This document shows, piece after piece, positions 53,685-59,938 of a stretch of DNA of 64,000 bases; positions within the stretch are counted from its first letter, which is position 1, and the number at the start of each line of letters is the position of its first letter. The stretch comes from Methanosarcina sp. Its GTDB lineage: Archaea; Halobacteriota; Methanosarcinia; Methanosarcinales; Methanosarcinaceae. The notes beneath the pieces are model-generated. The model saw nothing but the letters and a program-made list of their open reading frames with translations. It made no database searches and had not been told where the DNA came from. Both the position numbers and the translations under genes were made by a program. The stretch is taken from NCBI RefSeq assembly GCF_028693135.1, contig NZ_JAQUVZ010000012.1, forward strand, positions 1-64,000, given 5' to 3'.

Positions 53685-53769
53685 CAATTGTCGCAGGAGT
53701 TTAACTATCAGGTAAGAGTGGGGTCTTATGCAAAAAATTTATATCAAGTGTAAAAGAACTTACTATGTA

Positions 53770-54588
53770 ATGCCTGCAGATTCACGGAATCCTGAGATAA
53801 GCGTTTCTGATCTTCTCCTGTATATCAACTGCCCGCGGCGCGTATACTTTGTCAGCCGTGGTTTTGAGCTGTTCCCGGAAATAAATGCTTCAAGGATTGA
53901 AAGAATGCTCTTGAAAGAGCTTTCTCTGACTTTTCCTGAAATTGTGAGGGAATGTTCGTTAAACGCCGATAACCTGTGCAAAGAACTTGAAACTGCTTTT
54001 CTCCATGCATGTGAGGACCTCCCGCTTATGTTCCCAGCAGAATTCGCATGCATTGAAAAGGAAGTCGTTGAAGAAGGGAAGGCGCGGGCAAGAGCTAAAA
54101 TTCCTGAAATCGCGGCTAACCTTTTCAGAGGGCTTGAAGAATACGGAAAAGACCCTATGCTTGCGGCACTTACGCCTGTTAAAACCGAGCCCTTTCTTTC
54201 ATCTGAAAAACTTAACCTGAAGGGTGTCCCGTCCAAACTTGTCTGTTTCGAGGGCAGGAATGTCCCCTCGATTATGAAACCTGGAAATTGTCCGGTTCAG
54301 GGCGTGTGGGCCTCTGACCGGATGCATGCCGCATCCCTTGCCCTTCTCCTTGAAGCCGAGGCCGGAGGAGAAGTACCCTTTGCCTTTGTTGAATACGTAA
54401 GTTTCGGCCTGCTCCGGAAAGTAACTATCAGAAGTTCGGACCGCAGAGAAGTTTTAAAAATTTGCAGGCGTGTGGAGAAAATAAAAGCCGGATTCATGCC
54501 CGAGAAAAAAGAAGAAAAATTCTGTTCAGAATGCACTTTTTCAGAGCATTGTGTTTCAAATTCGTCCTTGATGTCAAAGTTTTTTTGA
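53770..54588 (+). CDS. Cas4/RecB-like protein lacking nuclease active-site residues
   Basis: 272 residues from ATG 53770. An in-frame ATG at 53728 lies upstream of a TATA box (AATTTATATC, about 53737-53746) whose start site would be near 53768, so 53770 is preferred and may be leaderless. The Cas4 cysteines are kept: Cys21 (LYINCPRRVYF), Cys252/Cys255/Cys261 (CSECTFSEHC), likely a 4Fe-4S site. But the nuclease core is changed: the metal Asp is Ser155 (KGVPSKLV), the Glu of ExK is Ile168 (VPSIMKPG, Lys170 kept), and the QxxxY helix reads MHAASLA. Probably non-catalytic. No CRISPR array or other cas gene is nearby. Confidence 0.8.
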   Translation: MPADSRNPEISVSDLLLYINCPRRVYFVSRGFELFPEINASRIERMLLKELSLTFPEIVRECSLNADNLCKELETAFLHACEDLPLMFPAEFACIEKEVVEEGKARARAKIPEIAANLFRGLEEYGKDPMLAALTPVKTEPFLSSEKLNLKGVPSKLVCFEGRNVPSIMKPGNCPVQGVWASDRMHAASLALLLEAEAGGEVPFAFVEYVSFGLLRKVTIRSSDRREVLKICRRVEKIKAGFMPEKKEEKFCSECTFSEHCVSNSSLMSKFF

Positions 54589-54676
54589 ACCGGGAATGGA
54601 CGGAAAAAGATTACAGCACAATGAAAAGGGAAAAAAGAATCTGTCCCATTTGTATGGTTGGATTTGGAGAGAACAG

Positions 54677-55279
54677 ATGAATGGTAAAAATGGGACATTA
54701 GCGCTATGTATTGCTATGGCATTGTGTCTATGTCTTATGCCATCAGCAATGGCTTCGACCGAAGAACAGCAAACCAACCAAACTAAAGATGCTGCTCAGT
54801 TAAAGATGGAGGCTTTGGAGGCTGAGCTGGGTGAAGAAGGAATGAAGGAAGTTGCGGATTACCTGGAGCTGCAGGCTTCTTTGCCTGATGTAGTGAAACG
54901 TATGCCGTATAGAGGACTTGCTTTTGCTGCTACTGATCCTGAAAGTCAAGCTATTACAATAAAATATATTGATCACTTCGATGTTTCTGAGAAGGAGAAA
55001 GAGGAGTATAAAGCTGGACTGCAGGACATCTGGGAGAGGTATCCGGATAAGATCACGAAGGATGACTATGCTTTCATGATTGAGTTGGGTCCAATGATCG
55101 ATAAAGAGGCTTTTAAGAACTATCAGGATCAGGATTATTCAAACAACAGTGATTTTGAATCTGATAATGGTAGTAGCTCAGGTGAAAATGAATCGAGCAA
55201 AAGTAACTCTACTCTAGGCTTCGGATTATTGGGGAGCTTGACCTGCCTGTATGGAGGATGGAAACTCAGGAAAAAGTAA
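54677..55279 (+). CDS. Secreted/anchored protein, unrecognised
   Basis: 200 residues from ATG 54677, after GGAGAGAAC. A signal peptide is evident (GTLALCIAMALCLCLMPSAM then AS), followed by an acidic helical domain (AAQLKMEALEAELGEEGMKE onward; DIWERYPDKITKDDYAFMIE), a Ser/Asn/Asp-rich linker (about 155-178) and a C-terminal helix LGFGLLGSLTCLYGGWKL ending in KK. This arrangement suggests a cell-surface protein held by its C-terminal helix. Function unknown. In the tandem duplication the second copy of this gene is deleted except for its last bases. Confidence 0.75.
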   Translation: MNGKNGTLALCIAMALCLCLMPSAMASTEEQQTNQTKDAAQLKMEALEAELGEEGMKEVADYLELQASLPDVVKRMPYRGLAFAATDPESQAITIKYIDHFDVSEKEKEEYKAGLQDIWERYPDKITKDDYAFMIELGPMIDKEAFKNYQDQDYSNNSDFESDNGSSSGENESSKSNSTLGFGLLGSLTCLYGGWKLRKK

Positions 55280-55385
55280 TGAAGGACCTGGATAACCGGA
55301 TTGCTGGTAATTGGTAATCTGTAGCCTGTTGGATCGGATACACAAACTGTTGAAGCCTCTGGTTATGAAATTAACCGTATATAAG
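55252..55385 (+). repeat. Conserved leader/promoter block, copy 1
   Basis: From the end of the secreted-protein gene to the TATA box GTATATAAG (55377-55385) upstream of the first UPF0228 gene. It matches 56850-56982 with only scattered differences. Homology largely stops at the TATA box. Confidence 0.85.
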
Positions 55386-55417
55386 CGGGATTAAAGCCAT
55401 ATTTTTGAGTGGTTAAT

Positions 55418-56005
55418 ATGAGTAAAGTAAATAAGAAAATCACCTTCTTTATTATTTTTCTGATTTTTGTAGTAATTATTGGATTATTTGTAAAAATGAC
55501 CATTTTTACTCCAACAGTAAATCCTGGACAAGAAGAGAGAAAAGTAGCTGGGTTAATCATTCAATTTAGAGATGGGGTTAGTGAGCAGGAAGCAAAATCT
55601 ATTCTCAAAAACTATAATTTAGCTAGATATAAACTGGATTTCACGGTTGATATGCCGGATAACTACTACATAATAGTAGATGAAGATAATATAATGGATG
55701 TAAAAAGTGAATTGAGATACGAAAATTTGACTGAAGCTACTCCGGCTTTAGAAAAAGGAAATTATTACATAACTAAAAAAGGAGATTATTACATAATTAC
55801 AATAGCGGAACAAAACATTCACAATGAAAGTTTTATTGAGATGCTAAATAAATATAATCTTGAAGTGAAAAAGTTCGTCTATTGCCATGTTATCATTACA
55901 GATCACCCAGATAGTGGGATTTCAGAGGAACGTGTGAATAAAGTAAAAAGTGAGCTTGAAATGAATGAAAACGTCTTCACTGTTTACTTTGAGTCTATTG
56001 AATAA
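55418..56005 (+). CDS. UPF0228 family protein, copy 1
   Basis: 195 residues from ATG 55418 (GTG 55409 also in frame). An N-terminal membrane helix (ITFFIIFLIFVVIIGLFVKM) is followed by the UPF0228 extracytoplasmic region: KVAGLIIQFRDGVSEQEAKS, NYYIIVDEDNIMDVKSEL, YYIITIAEQNIHNESFIEML and VNKVKSELEMNENVFTVYF. The family is largely confined to Methanosarcina and has no known function. The paired segments suggest two similar alpha/beta subdomains. It shares its upstream promoter block with the second copy at 57.0 kb, but the proteins differ greatly. Confidence 0.85.
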   Translation: MSKVNKKITFFIIFLIFVVIIGLFVKMTIFTPTVNPGQEERKVAGLIIQFRDGVSEQEAKSILKNYNLARYKLDFTVDMPDNYYIIVDEDNIMDVKSELRYENLTEATPALEKGNYYITKKGDYYIITIAEQNIHNESFIEMLNKYNLEVKKFVYCHVIITDHPDSGISEERVNKVKSELEMNENVFTVYFESIE

Positions 56006-56018
56006 TGAATATTTCACA

Positions 56019-56361
56019 TTTGACAGGCAGGAAGCCCTGTTGCTTTAACGCAGGGAGGAATGCCGTCAACTTTCTGGCATTCCGTTCCACGTTTGGATTT
56101 CTCCACTCTGCTTTGGAAACGAATTTCCGTAGCAGGTAATATGGTTTTGGAAAACCGTATCCCCTCGCCAATGTTGGATATGCTTGTCAAGTGTAGCACA
56201 CCGCCCCTACCTCTCAGGACTTTTAATGCTACACGATAGAGCTACAAACTGAGGAAGCATTCGCAGGTATCATGACATTTACAACGTAGTCAATTAAGAC
56301 TTAAGCTGGTCAATCAGGGCTTTTGCAAGCCACACTGCTTGAGCGTGGGGTAGTTGACATT
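56019..56361 (+). mobile_element. IS200/IS605 (IS1341-type) 3' remnant
   Basis: Begins with a hairpin CCCTG-TTGCTTTAACG-CAGGG (56035-56055). One frame reads SPVALTQGGMPSTFWHS and onward, resembling the tail that TnpB frames gain when they run into the element end. It ends with a second hairpin CCAC-ACTGCTTGAGC-GTGG and GTAGTTGAC (56350-56358), as at 26112-26120. No transposase catalytic region remains. It lies inside copy 1 of the tandem duplication and not in copy 2. Confidence 0.55.
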
Positions 56362-56457
56362 ATTTGGTAATTAATAATCTTTGCTTGTTGAGTCTGGTAC
56401 TTATATATATGGAATCATTTGGGAGTTTAGATAAGAAGGCTCTGAGGAAAAGCCAAT

Positions 56458-56497
56458 GCCTTTTAAAGGTGAACCTCGCTCAATCTGTATGACATGT
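56458..56497 (+). repeat. Displaced leader of the PAPS reductase-like gene (duplication junction)
   Basis: GCCTTTTAAAGGTGAACCTC and the following 20 bases are identical, except one C/T, to 57998-58037, where they lead into the ATG of the PAPS reductase-like gene. Here they run into the 3' part of the Cas4-like gene instead, marking the junction of a tandem duplication. Confidence 0.9.
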
Positions 56498-56739
56498 TCC
56501 TTGAAGCCGAGGCCGGAGGGGAGATGCCCTTTGCCTTTGTTGAATACGTAAGTTTCGGCCTGCTCAGAAAAGTGACTATCCGAAGTTCGGACCGCAGAGA
56601 AGTTTTAAAAATCTGCAGGCGTGTGGAAAAAATAAAAGCCGGATTCATGCCTGAGAAAAAAGAAGAAAAATACTGTAAAGAATGCACATTTTCAGAACAT
56701 TGTGTTTCAAATCCATCCCCGATGTCTAAGTTTTTCTAA
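56498..56739 (+). pseudogene. Duplicated 3' fragment of the Cas4-like gene
   Basis: Encodes the last 80 or so residues of the protein from 53770-54588, from LEAEAGGE to MSKFF, with about five substitutions (for example CKEC for CSEC and YC for FC), keeping the three C-terminal cysteines. An in-frame ATG at 56494 arises from the joined leader, so a short protein could in principle be made, but the N-terminal Cys and the core fold are missing. Confidence 0.88.
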
Positions 56740-56849
56740 ACCATGTAAGGGCCATTCTGGGACAGGAAGTGCCATGGGGGAATAAAAGTCTTACAGACTG
56801 CCTTAAAATAACGCTAATCTATCAAACTATTTTTAGCTTGATATGAGTG

Positions 56850-56982
56850 TGGAGGGTGAAAACTCAGTAAAAAGTAATGAAGGACCTGGATAACCGGATC
56901 GCTGGCAATTGGTAATCTGTAGCCTGTTGGATCTGATACACAAACGGTTGAAGCCGCTGGTTCTGAAGTTAACCGTATATAT
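56850..56982 (+). repeat. Conserved leader/promoter block, copy 2
   Basis: Matches 55252-55385, including the last codons of the secreted-protein gene (AACTCAG, AAAAAGTAATGAAGG) and the TATA box GTATATAT. Bases 56742-56832, between the Cas4-like fragment and this block, have no match in copy 1; they replace the secreted-protein gene. Confidence 0.85.
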
Positions 56983-57021
56983 GTGAGGAGTTAATACTCC
57001 TCATTTTTTTCGGTGATTGAT

Positions 57022-57558
57022 ATGAATAAAATTAGCAAAGTCGTAGTTGTTTTTATTGTTTCTCTGACTTTCTTAGTACTGATGATGCAATCTCAAGAAG
57101 TTAAAGTAGCTGGTTTACTTATTCAATTTGAAAATGAAACTACTGAGCCGGAAGTTCAAGCCATTCTTGAAAATTACAACATACCTGTGAATTATACCAT
57201 AGACTACAATTCTAATATTGGGCGAGGAATGTACTACATAAAAATAGATGAAGATAAAATAAATGAATTGAGGGAAGATGAAAACTGGACTTCTGTAGTT
57301 GAACTCAAAAAAGGAAATTATAACATAATTATGTTATCTGAAGAATTTGTTCCAGATGAAAGTTTTCTTACAATGCTGGACAAAAATAATCTCCAGTTGA
57401 AAAAGGCCGTCGTGTGTTATATCCATTTTGGAGATGGACCACAGAATTGGGTTGTGGGGACGAATTGTGTTCTGGAAAAGGATGCAATCAGGATAAAAAA
57501 TGAGCTTGAAACAAATGAGAAAGTTTTGATTGTAGGTCTAGATGATATTGAAGGGTAA
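57022..57558 (+). CDS. UPF0228 family protein, copy 2
   Basis: 178 residues from ATG 57022, which follows GGTGAT by four bases; a GTG at 57013 lies in that site. N-terminal helix (VVVVFIVSLTFLVLMM), then KVAGLLIQFENETTEPEVQA, YYIKIDEDKINELRED, NIIMLSEEFVPDESFLTML and RIKNELETNEKVLIVGLDDI. By eye only about a third of residues match copy 1, although the promoter block upstream is nearly identical. Function unknown; probably membrane-anchored and exposed. Confidence 0.83.
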   Translation: MNKISKVVVVFIVSLTFLVLMMQSQEVKVAGLLIQFENETTEPEVQAILENYNIPVNYTIDYNSNIGRGMYYIKIDEDKINELREDENWTSVVELKKGNYNIIMLSEEFVPDESFLTMLDKNNLQLKKAVVCYIHFGDGPQNWVVGTNCVLEKDAIRIKNELETNEKVLIVGLDDIEG

Positions 57559-58033
57559 AAACACTGCACTGAACTATCACTGCAGAAATTATGATACATG
57601 AATCATTAAACTTCCAGAGTAAATAAATTTATCCAAGCTAAAATTTATTATGGTGAAATTATCATGATGAATAAATCATACCAACTACTGTATATCGCTT
57701 TCTTCGTCATTTCTTTATCATAATCCTGATTATGCATATAATAAATAGTGACAGGAGACCATCTTAAATTACCCCCAAATATTTACGCACCCTATGTATG
57801 AAATCAAATACAGTAAACATCATAGTTTAGATTTATATTTTAGACATTTAATGGTTTAATGCTACTTTTCCAGTTCAAATACATAAGTCCTGCCACGGCT
57901 GCAAAATAAATTCGATATTAAAACTTTTTCATAGGAAAAGCTAAAACCTTCCACAAAAATTTTTGGTCAAGCTTTTTTTTAAAAAGCTTGAGCCAAAGCC
58001 TTTTAAAGGTGAACCTCGCTCAATCTGCATGAC
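57559..58033. other. Intergenic region before the PAPS reductase-like gene
   Basis: AT-rich. A 19-codon frame at 57664-57723 (MMNKSYQLLYIAFFVISLS) looks like a bare signal peptide and could be the relic of a further secreted or UPF0228 gene. AAGCTTTTTTTTAAAAAGCTT near 57969-57989 is a palindromic hairpin. The last 36 bases are the leader duplicated at 56458-56497. Confidence 0.5.
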
Positions 58034-59938
58034 ATGTCCAAACCAGTATACCTTGGCAAAATGCTCCTGCACTGGTGCGATGCCTGCAATGTGCCTGTGC
58101 TCGGAAAACAGTGTGGGTGCGGCAATAGAGCAAAAAAAGTTGAGGTCACTCCTCCCGGCGATATTCGTCCGGCTTTTGATTATGATATAAAACGCATAAA
58201 CTCCGTTTCTGAAAAACAGTTCAATGCCCCCCTTATCCCCGAAGGGCATCTTGTGGTGCTTAACAAAGCCCCTTATGAAGACCGGATGGATGAAATTATA
58301 GTGGACGGGGAAGTCCTTGCATCTATCAGGTTTGAAATAGAAAACTGCACATGGGTCCTGCTCCCCAGGCTCGAAGGAGCAAGGCGGCTTTTTCAGGGCA
58401 GGGACAGGAAAGAGCTTAAAAAATGGGTGGTTATCGAGCCGGAAATTATGCCCTTTATCCTGAAAAAAGGGGCAAGTGTCCTTGCTCCCGGAGTCCTTGA
58501 TGCAGATCCGGAAATCGAAAAAGAGGACGAGGTTGTTGTCCTTCTCCCTTCCGGAGAGGTAGTTTGCTGCGGGAGAGCCCGGCTGACAGGCAGGGAAATG
58601 ATTGAAGAAAAGCGCGGAAATGCCGTAAAGCCGCGCTGGAGTGCAGAACCCGTAGCTGCAAAAACCCTTCCCCCGGGAAAGAGCTGGGATGATGCCGTAA
58701 AAGCCAATGAGAAAATTCTTGACTCAATGATAGGGATGGCTCATTCTTTCATAAGAAACGTTTCCGGAAGTATGGACCTGAAAGTCAGTGTATCCTATTC
58801 CGGGGGCAAGGACAGCCTTGCAGTGCTGCAGCTTGTGGATGAAACTCTGGACGATTATGAATTGATGTTTGCAGATACAGGGATTGAGTTTCCGGAAACC
58901 CTTGAAAACGTCAAAAAGGTTGCAGAATATTACGGAAAAACCCTCCGGACAGCGAGTTCAGGAGATTCGTTCTGGGAGTCTATTGGAGTTTTCGGGCCTC
59001 CGACAATGGATACGCGCTGGTGTTGCAAGATCTGTAAACTGGGACCCATTGCCAGGCTGATTGACGAAAATTATGAGGGAGGCTGCCTGAGCTTCATAGG
59101 ACAGCGCCAGTACGAATCCCATGCTCGCTCCATCAGTAATAAGGTCTGGAAAAATCCCTGGGTCGGAAATCAGGTTGGAGCGTCCCCCATACAGGAATGG
59201 ACAGCTCTGCATGTCTGGCTCTACCTCTTCAGGACAAAAGCTCCCTATAATCCGGCGTATGAGAAAGGTTACGATCGGATGGGCTGCTGGCTCTGCCCGT
59301 CTTCCTCCCTATCCGACTTTTTCCAGCTTGAGGAAAGTCACCCTGAACTTGCACAAAAACTCAACACCCACCTCCTGGCTTACGCAGAAAGGATGGGACT
59401 TTCCCCGGAATGGGTAAAATACGGCTTATGGCGCTACAAACGCTACCCCAAAGTCCTGCAGGAGCTTGCGGATAGAAAGGGAATTTCCCTGCTCCCTACC
59501 CAGGAAGCTCCCGGAGAGCTCCATTTTGAAGTTGCCACAGGATACAGGCCCTGCAAAGCAGGAGGGATTTCTGCGGATGGAAGTTTCGGGCAGGCGATAG
59601 ATATTGAATCTCTTGAAGAAAGCGGAATGCTCAATCCTGTAGGGAAAGCTTCCTTCATAGAAGGAGCTGCCTCTGTCGCTCTGGGGGAGTCGAGAGCCCA
59701 GGTCTTTGCTTCCGGAAATGTGAACGGAAGAAGTGAAAACGAAAAAACCCTGAAAAAGCTCATGCGAATGGTAGAGTTCTCAGTAAGAAGAGCTGTCCTC
59801 TGCCAGGGCTGCGGAGTCTGTGTAGGACACTGTGAGCACAACGCAATTGAAATGAAAGAAAAGAGAGCCTGGATCAGGGAGAGCTGCACTCACTGCGGGG
59901 CCTGTATAGAGGTCTGCCCGCTTGTGAAATTCCTGTAA
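58034..59938 (+). CDS. Zinc ribbon-PUA-PAPS reductase-ferredoxin fusion protein
   Basis: 634 residues, four modules. Residues 10-35: zinc ribbon (HWCDACNVPVLGKQCGCGNR). About 135-205: PUA-type RNA-binding domain (WVVIEPEIMPFILKKGASVL onward). About 250-440: PP-loop ATPase of the PAPS reductase family with VSVSYSGGKDSLAVLQL, DTGIEFPETLENV, TRWCCKICKLGPIARL and a CWLCPSSSLSDF cysteine site. 575-634: two 4Fe-4S clusters (CQGCGVCVGHCEHNAI, CTHCGACIEVCPL). RNA binding plus PP-loop plus redox suggests sulfur insertion into RNA or sulfur mobilisation, and not classical sulfate assimilation; this is inference. ATG 58034 has AGGTGA only at distance. Confidence 0.9.
   Translation: MSKPVYLGKMLLHWCDACNVPVLGKQCGCGNRAKKVEVTPPGDIRPAFDYDIKRINSVSEKQFNAPLIPEGHLVVLNKAPYEDRMDEIIVDGEVLASIRFEIENCTWVLLPRLEGARRLFQGRDRKELKKWVVIEPEIMPFILKKGASVLAPGVLDADPEIEKEDEVVVLLPSGEVVCCGRARLTGREMIEEKRGNAVKPRWSAEPVAAKTLPPGKSWDDAVKANEKILDSMIGMAHSFIRNVSGSMDLKVSVSYSGGKDSLAVLQLVDETLDDYELMFADTGIEFPETLENVKKVAEYYGKTLRTASSGDSFWESIGVFGPPTMDTRWCCKICKLGPIARLIDENYEGGCLSFIGQRQYESHARSISNKVWKNPWVGNQVGASPIQEWTALHVWLYLFRTKAPYNPAYEKGYDRMGCWLCPSSSLSDFFQLEESHPELAQKLNTHLLAYAERMGLSPEWVKYGLWRYKRYPKVLQELADRKGISLLPTQEAPGELHFEVATGYRPCKAGGISADGSFGQAIDIESLEESGMLNPVGKASFIEGAASVALGESRAQVFASGNVNGRSENEKTLKKLMRMVEFSVRRAVLCQGCGVCVGHCEHNAIEMKEKRAWIRESCTHCGACIEVCPLVKFL

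Follow-up and report, generated by a model that had tools for sequence, protein, structure and literature searches.

Two anciently diverged UPF0228 genes follow copies of one duplicated leader in a Methanosarcina genome

Gene conversion or cassette exchange in multigene families of surface proteins leaves a constant flank beside a divergent cassette, with a sharp edge that lies in a short common sequence. The same arrangement is found around two genes of the UPF0228 family (PF05727) in a stretch of 64,000 nucleotides (nt) from Methanosarcina sp. (positions 1 to 64,000 of contig NZ_JAQUVZ010000012.1; hereafter the window), together with a tract of high identity to a relative, G027. As in cassette exchange, the cassette here is older than its flank and incongruent with it. 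The difference from the multigene families is that the source genome has just two UPF0228 genes, so it lacks the store of silent copies on which programmed switching, as in antigenic variation, would draw. Exchange here would seem to involve different lineages, or to reflect loss from an array. The Pfam entry for PF05727 gives no function, no paper in the library searched mentions 'UPF0228', and literature searches on C39 peptidases, inhibitors, recombination and surface-protein paralogues in Methanosarcina gave nothing directly relevant as judged by title and abstract. The tandem ferredoxin-like model of the family and its link to C39-like peptidases that are discussed below derive from this analysis.

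The source genome is called G000, the genomes of its relatives have handles such as G003, G025, G027 and G030, and the first and second UPF0228 copies are A and B. Both genes match PF05727 well above the curated cut-off of 25 bits (109 and 152 bits for A and B respectively) and cover nearly the whole profile. Matches to this family are found in 27 of 60 genomes and in two of 18 genera, both of one family, with Methanosarcina acetivorans being the sole control that matched. In a direct-repeat comparison the duplicated unit extends from 54347 to 56497 and is repeated from 56498 to 58037, the junction lying between 56497 and 56498. Its main parts are as follows.

54347-54591, + strand: tail of a Cas4-like gene in unit 1, 245 nt, repeated at 56498-56742 with 91% identity (direct repeat D1)
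55249-55383, + strand: leader 1, comprising the end of a secreted open reading frame (ORF), then the fossil 3′ remnant of a C39-like peptidase gene with an in-frame TAG, up to a TATA-like CCGTATATA (direct repeat D2)
55418-56005, + strand: UPF0228 gene A, 195 amino acids, with a predicted N-terminal membrane anchor (PF05727, E 1.9e-31); same-locus orthologues in G025 and G027, decayed in G003
56451-56497, + strand: start region of a PAPS-reductase-like gene at the end of unit 1, repeated at 57991-58037 with 96% identity over 47 nt (direct repeat D3)
56847-56981, + strand: leader 2, the fossil tail of a C39-like peptidase, the frame of which reads NL, a stop, PVGSDTQTVEAAGSEVNRIYVRS and a second stop (direct repeat D2; 135 nt at 92% identity to leader 1)
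57022-57558, + strand: UPF0228 gene B, 178 amino acids, with a predicted N-terminal membrane anchor (PF05727, E 9.7e-45); same-locus orthologues in G027 and G030

The PAPS-reductase-like gene starts within D3, and so the duplicated unit reaches from the Cas4 tail into the beginning of that gene. The two Cas4 tails differ at five of 79 residues (93.7% identical). An earlier note on this DNA had claimed that the leader and the Cas4 tail are nearly unchanged while the UPF0228 proteins share about a third of their residues, and both statements are confirmed, the latter at 32% identity (BLASTP). It also placed the loss of homology at the TATA box. This is correct for the DNA, where identity stops at 55383 and 56981, right after CCGTATATA; at the protein level homology continues past this point, and is old rather than absent.

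In a tree of 80 UPF0228 proteins from relatives A and B fall in separate, well-supported clades. A joint clade of A and B is 318 log units worse and is rejected by the approximately unbiased test (p-AU 1.6e-6), and a single clade of the six same-locus A and B genes is likewise rejected (p-AU 2.7e-11). The nearest neighbours of A in the tree come from the same locus in G025 and G027, followed by a distant gene of G027 (at 1031501; synonymous divergence, dS, 0.25) that is its closest relative outside the locus. Those of B come from this locus in G027 and G030, followed by genes of distant clusters. It had been predicted in the earlier note that the second copy would group with a distant locus; this holds at the second step, whereas at the first step B groups with the same locus in other genomes, and A does likewise. 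Because both group first with the same locus, neither is a one-off import from afar.

The dS between A and B is 1.07 (close to saturation) and the non-synonymous divergence (dN) is 0.46, while the duplicated Cas4 tail has a dS of 0.39 that derives from about 50 synonymous sites. The separate clades, together with a dS above that of the Cas4 tail, mean that the coding sequences are older than the surrounding duplication, with the split of A from B far predating the local tandem event. The equal age of genes and flank that had been assumed is contradicted by the different ancient clades. One explanation offered on that assumption was that both genes were born in the tandem duplication and diverged rapidly under diversifying selection on an exposed protein, with the leader and Cas4 tail kept constant. 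Both proteins are extracytoplasmic by prediction, and the gene-wide dN/dS between UPF0228 orthologues of 0.24-0.49 is above the value of about 0.1 for Cas4, as would be expected. However, a joint clade is rejected, the synonymous divergence is raised as well, and each gene has highly similar same-locus orthologues in other genomes (91-95% protein identity for A and 90-97% for B), so that this explanation is highly improbable. Fast diversification after the duplication is excluded. The range of dN/dS sets aside one orthologue pair with a value of 1.27 that arises from one synonymous and five non-synonymous changes. UPF0228 is under weaker constraint than Cas4, and gene-wide positive selection is not seen. 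Orthologues of A have dS values of 0.07-0.16, and that between the B genes of G000 and G027 is 0.009. The other option that had been offered, replacement of a coding cassette by recombination, is supported by the higher synonymous divergence of UPF0228 relative to the duplicated flank and by the position of A and B in different ancient clades, both of which contain distant-locus genes.

The leader itself is not merely a promoter block: it derives from the 3′ end of a gene for a secreted C39-like peptidase, now eroded and with an in-frame TAG. In relatives the genes upstream of UPF0228 encode secreted proteins of around 400 residues that match Peptidase_C39_2 (PF13529, E 1.3e-12 to 3.7e-7), and the gene directly upstream of UPF0228 in other genomes often has a similar ending, e.g. 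INDPLPVGSGHQTVEVNGAQERKRIYVRP. The leader corresponds to the last 30 or so codons of such a gene. A C39-tail profile was built from 19 tails, taken from C39 genes that are themselves near UPF0228 genes. Leader 2 scores 28.1 bits against this profile and leader 1 scores 9.2 bits, and none of 500 dinucleotide-preserving shuffles scored as high for either. The term 'promoter block' that was used previously is therefore mainly a description of the fossil peptidase end, although a TATA-like core is present within it. This core coincides with the old peptidase codons R-I-Y-V and is a candidate promoter element. The same leader precedes A in G000, G025 and G027, and B in G000 and G030. There is no intact C39-like peptidase domain in the window, which has the fossil tail only, and no convincing intact PF13529 member was found in the source genome (one signal-peptide match and one weak match at 28%). 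A second, weak fossil of the same kind lies downstream of A.

56360-56435, + strand: second, weak C39-tail fossil, scoring 6.3 bits in G000 and 11.3 bits in G025, with none of 500 shuffles as high in either

The point at which A and B part company is well defined.

56971-57010, + strand: exchange point, comprising the AACCGTATATA core (fossil codons N-R-I-Y) and then the hairpin GTGAGGAGT-TAAT-ACTCCTCAT with a T run; left edge of the homology with G027

The TATA core AACCGTATATA, of about 11 base pairs, is common to A and B at this position and forms a sharp breakpoint. The hairpin and T run follow the core at B and at many other UPF0228 genes, with the old stop codon lying within the loop. 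The stems exhibit paired changes between genes (GTGAGGAGT/ACTCCTCAT, GTGAAGAG/CTCTTCAC and ATGTGAGG/CCTCACAT), and the hairpin is present upstream of 43 of 94 UPF0228 genes, compared with 7-15 when the bases are shuffled. The hairpin before B resembles a terminator. The earlier note had considered that leader blocks might be conserved for unrelated reasons at non-duplicated loci, and this is partly so, as the hairpin recurs at many such UPF0228 loci. From the TATA core at 56971 to around 58400, G000 and G027 differ by 1.1%, compared with 8.0% in the remaining compared stretch, where the right-hand end of the tract was chosen after viewing a 1-kilobase profile and the binomial probability for the contrast presupposes a uniform rate. 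This suggests that B and the beginning of the gene after it were recently exchanged between the G000 and G027 lineages.

The locus is differently arranged in each of the relatives. In G027 the order is leader, A, 147 nt and B, with neither the Cas4 tail nor the second leader. The 147 nt before B resemble a DDE transposase 3′ end such as that in L149, so that an element has probably removed what lay between A and B. G025 has the leader, A and a Cas4 fragment that is interrupted by a stop, followed by an unrelated stretch where B would be. The duplication junction in G025 is identical to that in G000; the duplication therefore either predates the separation of G000 and G025, or was shared by transfer. 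In G030 the leader is followed by B, and a second leader that lies farther upstream goes with a UPF0228 gene of a third lineage. In G003 a decayed A lies in the same place with no leader. The stretch in G025 that replaces leader 2 and B (L083:5030-5510) matches nothing convincingly in the window, in G027 or in G030, and by eye its opposite strand could code for a small membrane protein. As a separate observation, the closer relative of G000 alternates between G025 and G027 along 43000-64000, pointing to frequent recombination among these lineages.

Two histories could lead to these arrangements. In the first, a whole array of A and B with C39 remnants would have been duplicated, after which recombination between identical TATA cores would have removed B from unit 1 and A from unit 2. 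A is still followed by B in G027, AACCGTATATA is common to A and B at the exchange point, and the second C39 fossil after A in G000 and G025 is what would be expected if another UPF0228 gene had once been there. That fossil is weak, however; two deletions are needed, and the joint of leader and B in G030 must be the same event or its repeat. We place this history somewhat short of an even chance. In the second, a unit of leader and B would have been duplicated, and an A cassette brought in from elsewhere would then have replaced B after the leader of unit 1. The presence of leader and B without A in G030 is consistent with this, as is the occurrence of the closest non-locus relative of A at a distant site in G027. 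Yet no donor tract was found for A, for which there are same-locus orthologues and the one distant G027 paralogue only, and given its decayed copy at this locus in G003 and its position beside B in G027, A may be an old resident. Import of A by this route is unlikely, and complementary loss from the array is slightly favoured over it.

UPF0228 genes are frequently found next to C39 genes. Of 94 UPF0228 genes, 36 are preceded by a C39 tail or remnant at a distance of up to 420 nt. In the converse comparison UPF0228 is found within 700 nt downstream of 19 of 39 C39 genes, which is an approximate proportion given that the 39 were picked by hand from the match table (mostly longer matches reaching the C-terminal part, plus a few shorter fragments). 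The spacing is around 30-160 nt in 18 of the 19 pairs, the order is always C39 and then UPF0228, and a hairpin at the C39 stop codon is shared. Each of the 19 genomes that have a convincing C39 gene also has UPF0228, as do seven of 12 without one (p 0.005, ignoring relatedness; the sets were read by hand from match tables). The pairing is common, but it is not obligate. The 420- and 700-nt distances, the hairpin score and the limits of protein length for the tree were each used at one setting.

Both A and B begin with a hydrophobic stretch, and residues 6-23 of B are helical in the model, in keeping with the N-terminal membrane anchor and extracytoplasmic location that had been proposed from the sequence. 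The model of the A ectodomain (predicted local distance difference test, pLDDT, 80.2; predicted template modelling score, pTM, 0.75) has an order of elements corresponding to two beta-alpha-beta-beta-alpha-beta units. Its best match in the PDB is a designed ferredoxin-ferredoxin protein (E 9.8e-4), with a template modelling score of only 0.29. The model of full-length B is poor (pLDDT 69) and gave no useful match in the fold search, and a sequence search of solved structures with UPF0228 gave no convincing relative. Comparison of the UPF0228 profile with itself for an internal repeat gave E 0.01-0.05 for one comparison, which is merely suggestive. A membrane-anchored extracellular protein with a tandem ferredoxin-like fold is plausible on the basis of the model, with no natural homologue identified by the fold search. 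Inhibitor_I9 (PF05922) and protease propeptides have a similar order of secondary structure, and the procarboxypeptidase activation domain 1o6x is a weak structural match (E 0.1). They differ in having no sequence relationship to UPF0228 by profile comparison, where the N-terminal half scored 11.1 compared to a shuffled-column maximum of 14.4; with no Inhibitor_I9 match in the Pfam scan either, this homology was rejected.

Gene order, spacing and exposure are what suggest a role for UPF0228 as an inhibitor, immunity protein or chaperone. That it is an anchored extracellular tandem ferredoxin-like inhibitor, immunity or folding partner of the adjacent secreted C39-like peptidase is a tentative and rather doubtful proposal. 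Still less probable is the wider scheme in which UPF0228 proteins would be anchored inhibitors or immunity proteins of polymorphic secreted C39-like peptidases in Methanosarcina, with diverse orphan partners such as A and B being kept after loss of the peptidase and swapped by recombination at the peptidase stop codon and TATA core. Alternatively, UPF0228 and the C39-like peptidase could be functionally unrelated, both being surface-protein genes that gather in the same hypervariable clusters. Around half of the C39 genes have no adjoining UPF0228, other, unrelated surface-protein genes occupy the same slots, and UPF0228 genes remain where C39 has gone. The mostly tight spacing, the constant order and the shared hairpin at the C39 stop codon do not fit so readily with the absence of a functional connection, to which we nevertheless give close to an even chance.

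Taken together, it is fairly likely that Methanosarcina has a variable slot between the Cas4-like and PAPS-reductase-like genes that has housed several ancient UPF0228 lineages, and in which old cassettes have been sorted behind one leader by recombination. The block of Cas4 tail, leader, UPF0228 and the start of the PAPS-reductase-like gene would have been duplicated in tandem. Recombination or deletion with one edge in the AACCGTATATA core may then have placed A after leader 1 and B after leader 2, most likely through complementary loss from an A and B array or alternatively by import of one cassette. The peptidase would by now have gone from the locus, leaving two orphan partners. A number of observations weigh against this reading and the partnership associated with it. 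G003 has a decayed, leaderless A and G030 has leader and B, so either gene could be the older resident. The relatedness of G000, G025, G027 and G030 is mosaic along the window, such that no single species tree orders the events. The fossil signal of leader 1 is weak at 9.2 bits, as is that of the second fossil after A, and the contrast of dS values is affected by the few Cas4 sites and near-saturation of A and B. Lastly, 20 of the 39 C39 genes have no adjoining UPF0228 and 58 of the 94 UPF0228 genes have no detected C39 tail, the counts of co-occurrence in genomes take no account of relatedness, and homology with Inhibitor_I9 is unsupported.

The remaining features of the locus are as follows.

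53728-54588, + strand: Cas4-like (DUF83) gene, 286 amino acids, the parent of the duplicated tail (PF01930, E 1.1e-9); in nearly all members of the genus
54677-55279, + strand: secreted ORF, 200 amino acids from the ATG at 54677, with the tail ...GFGLLGSLTCLYGGWKLRKK; signal-like N-terminus as judged from the letters; matches no curated family
56015-56358, + strand: interspersed repeat of 344 nt that follows A as an insertion; missing at this place in G025
56494-56739, + strand: duplication-junction ORF, 81 amino acids, in which the PAPS-reductase-like ATG continues in frame into the final 79 codons of Cas4
57991-59938, + strand: PAPS-reductase/PUA/ferredoxin-domain gene with its 5′ region, 634 amino acids, start at 58034 (PF01507, E 4.2e-42; PF01472); conserved across the genus

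The PAPS-reductase-like gene forms the right border of the variable interval. The junction ORF, which joins the start codon and 5′ region of that gene to the C-terminal 79 residues of Cas4, is open in G000. There are 15 copies of the 344-nt repeat in the genome at above 90% identity (one covering 317 nt) plus many partial copies, and by eye its ends resemble those of IS200/IS605-type elements. The secreted ORFs before leader 1 (54677-55279; L083:2584-3924; L084:1891-3015) have unrelated bodies in G000, G025 (a beta-propeller) and G027, with the C-terminal tail ...GFGLLGSLTCLYGGWKLRKK common to all, as if the bodies had been exchanged ahead of a fixed anchor tail. NCBIfam contains no sorting-tail model that matches ...GFGLLGSLTCLYGGWKLRKK, and the label PGF-CTERM was not adopted for that reason. 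Elsewhere, four species (G007, G008, G014 and G025; L094, L095, L096 and L100) share a UPF0228 protein without any difference over 158 residues, encoded in clusters outside this locus, which suggests recent spread.

A constant promoter in front of a divergent gene need not signify rapid evolution; here two old variants have probably been sorted by recombination. An uncharacterized archaeal family thereby acquires a likely fold and a genomic partner, and these could be tested in genetically tractable laboratory strains of Methanosarcina.

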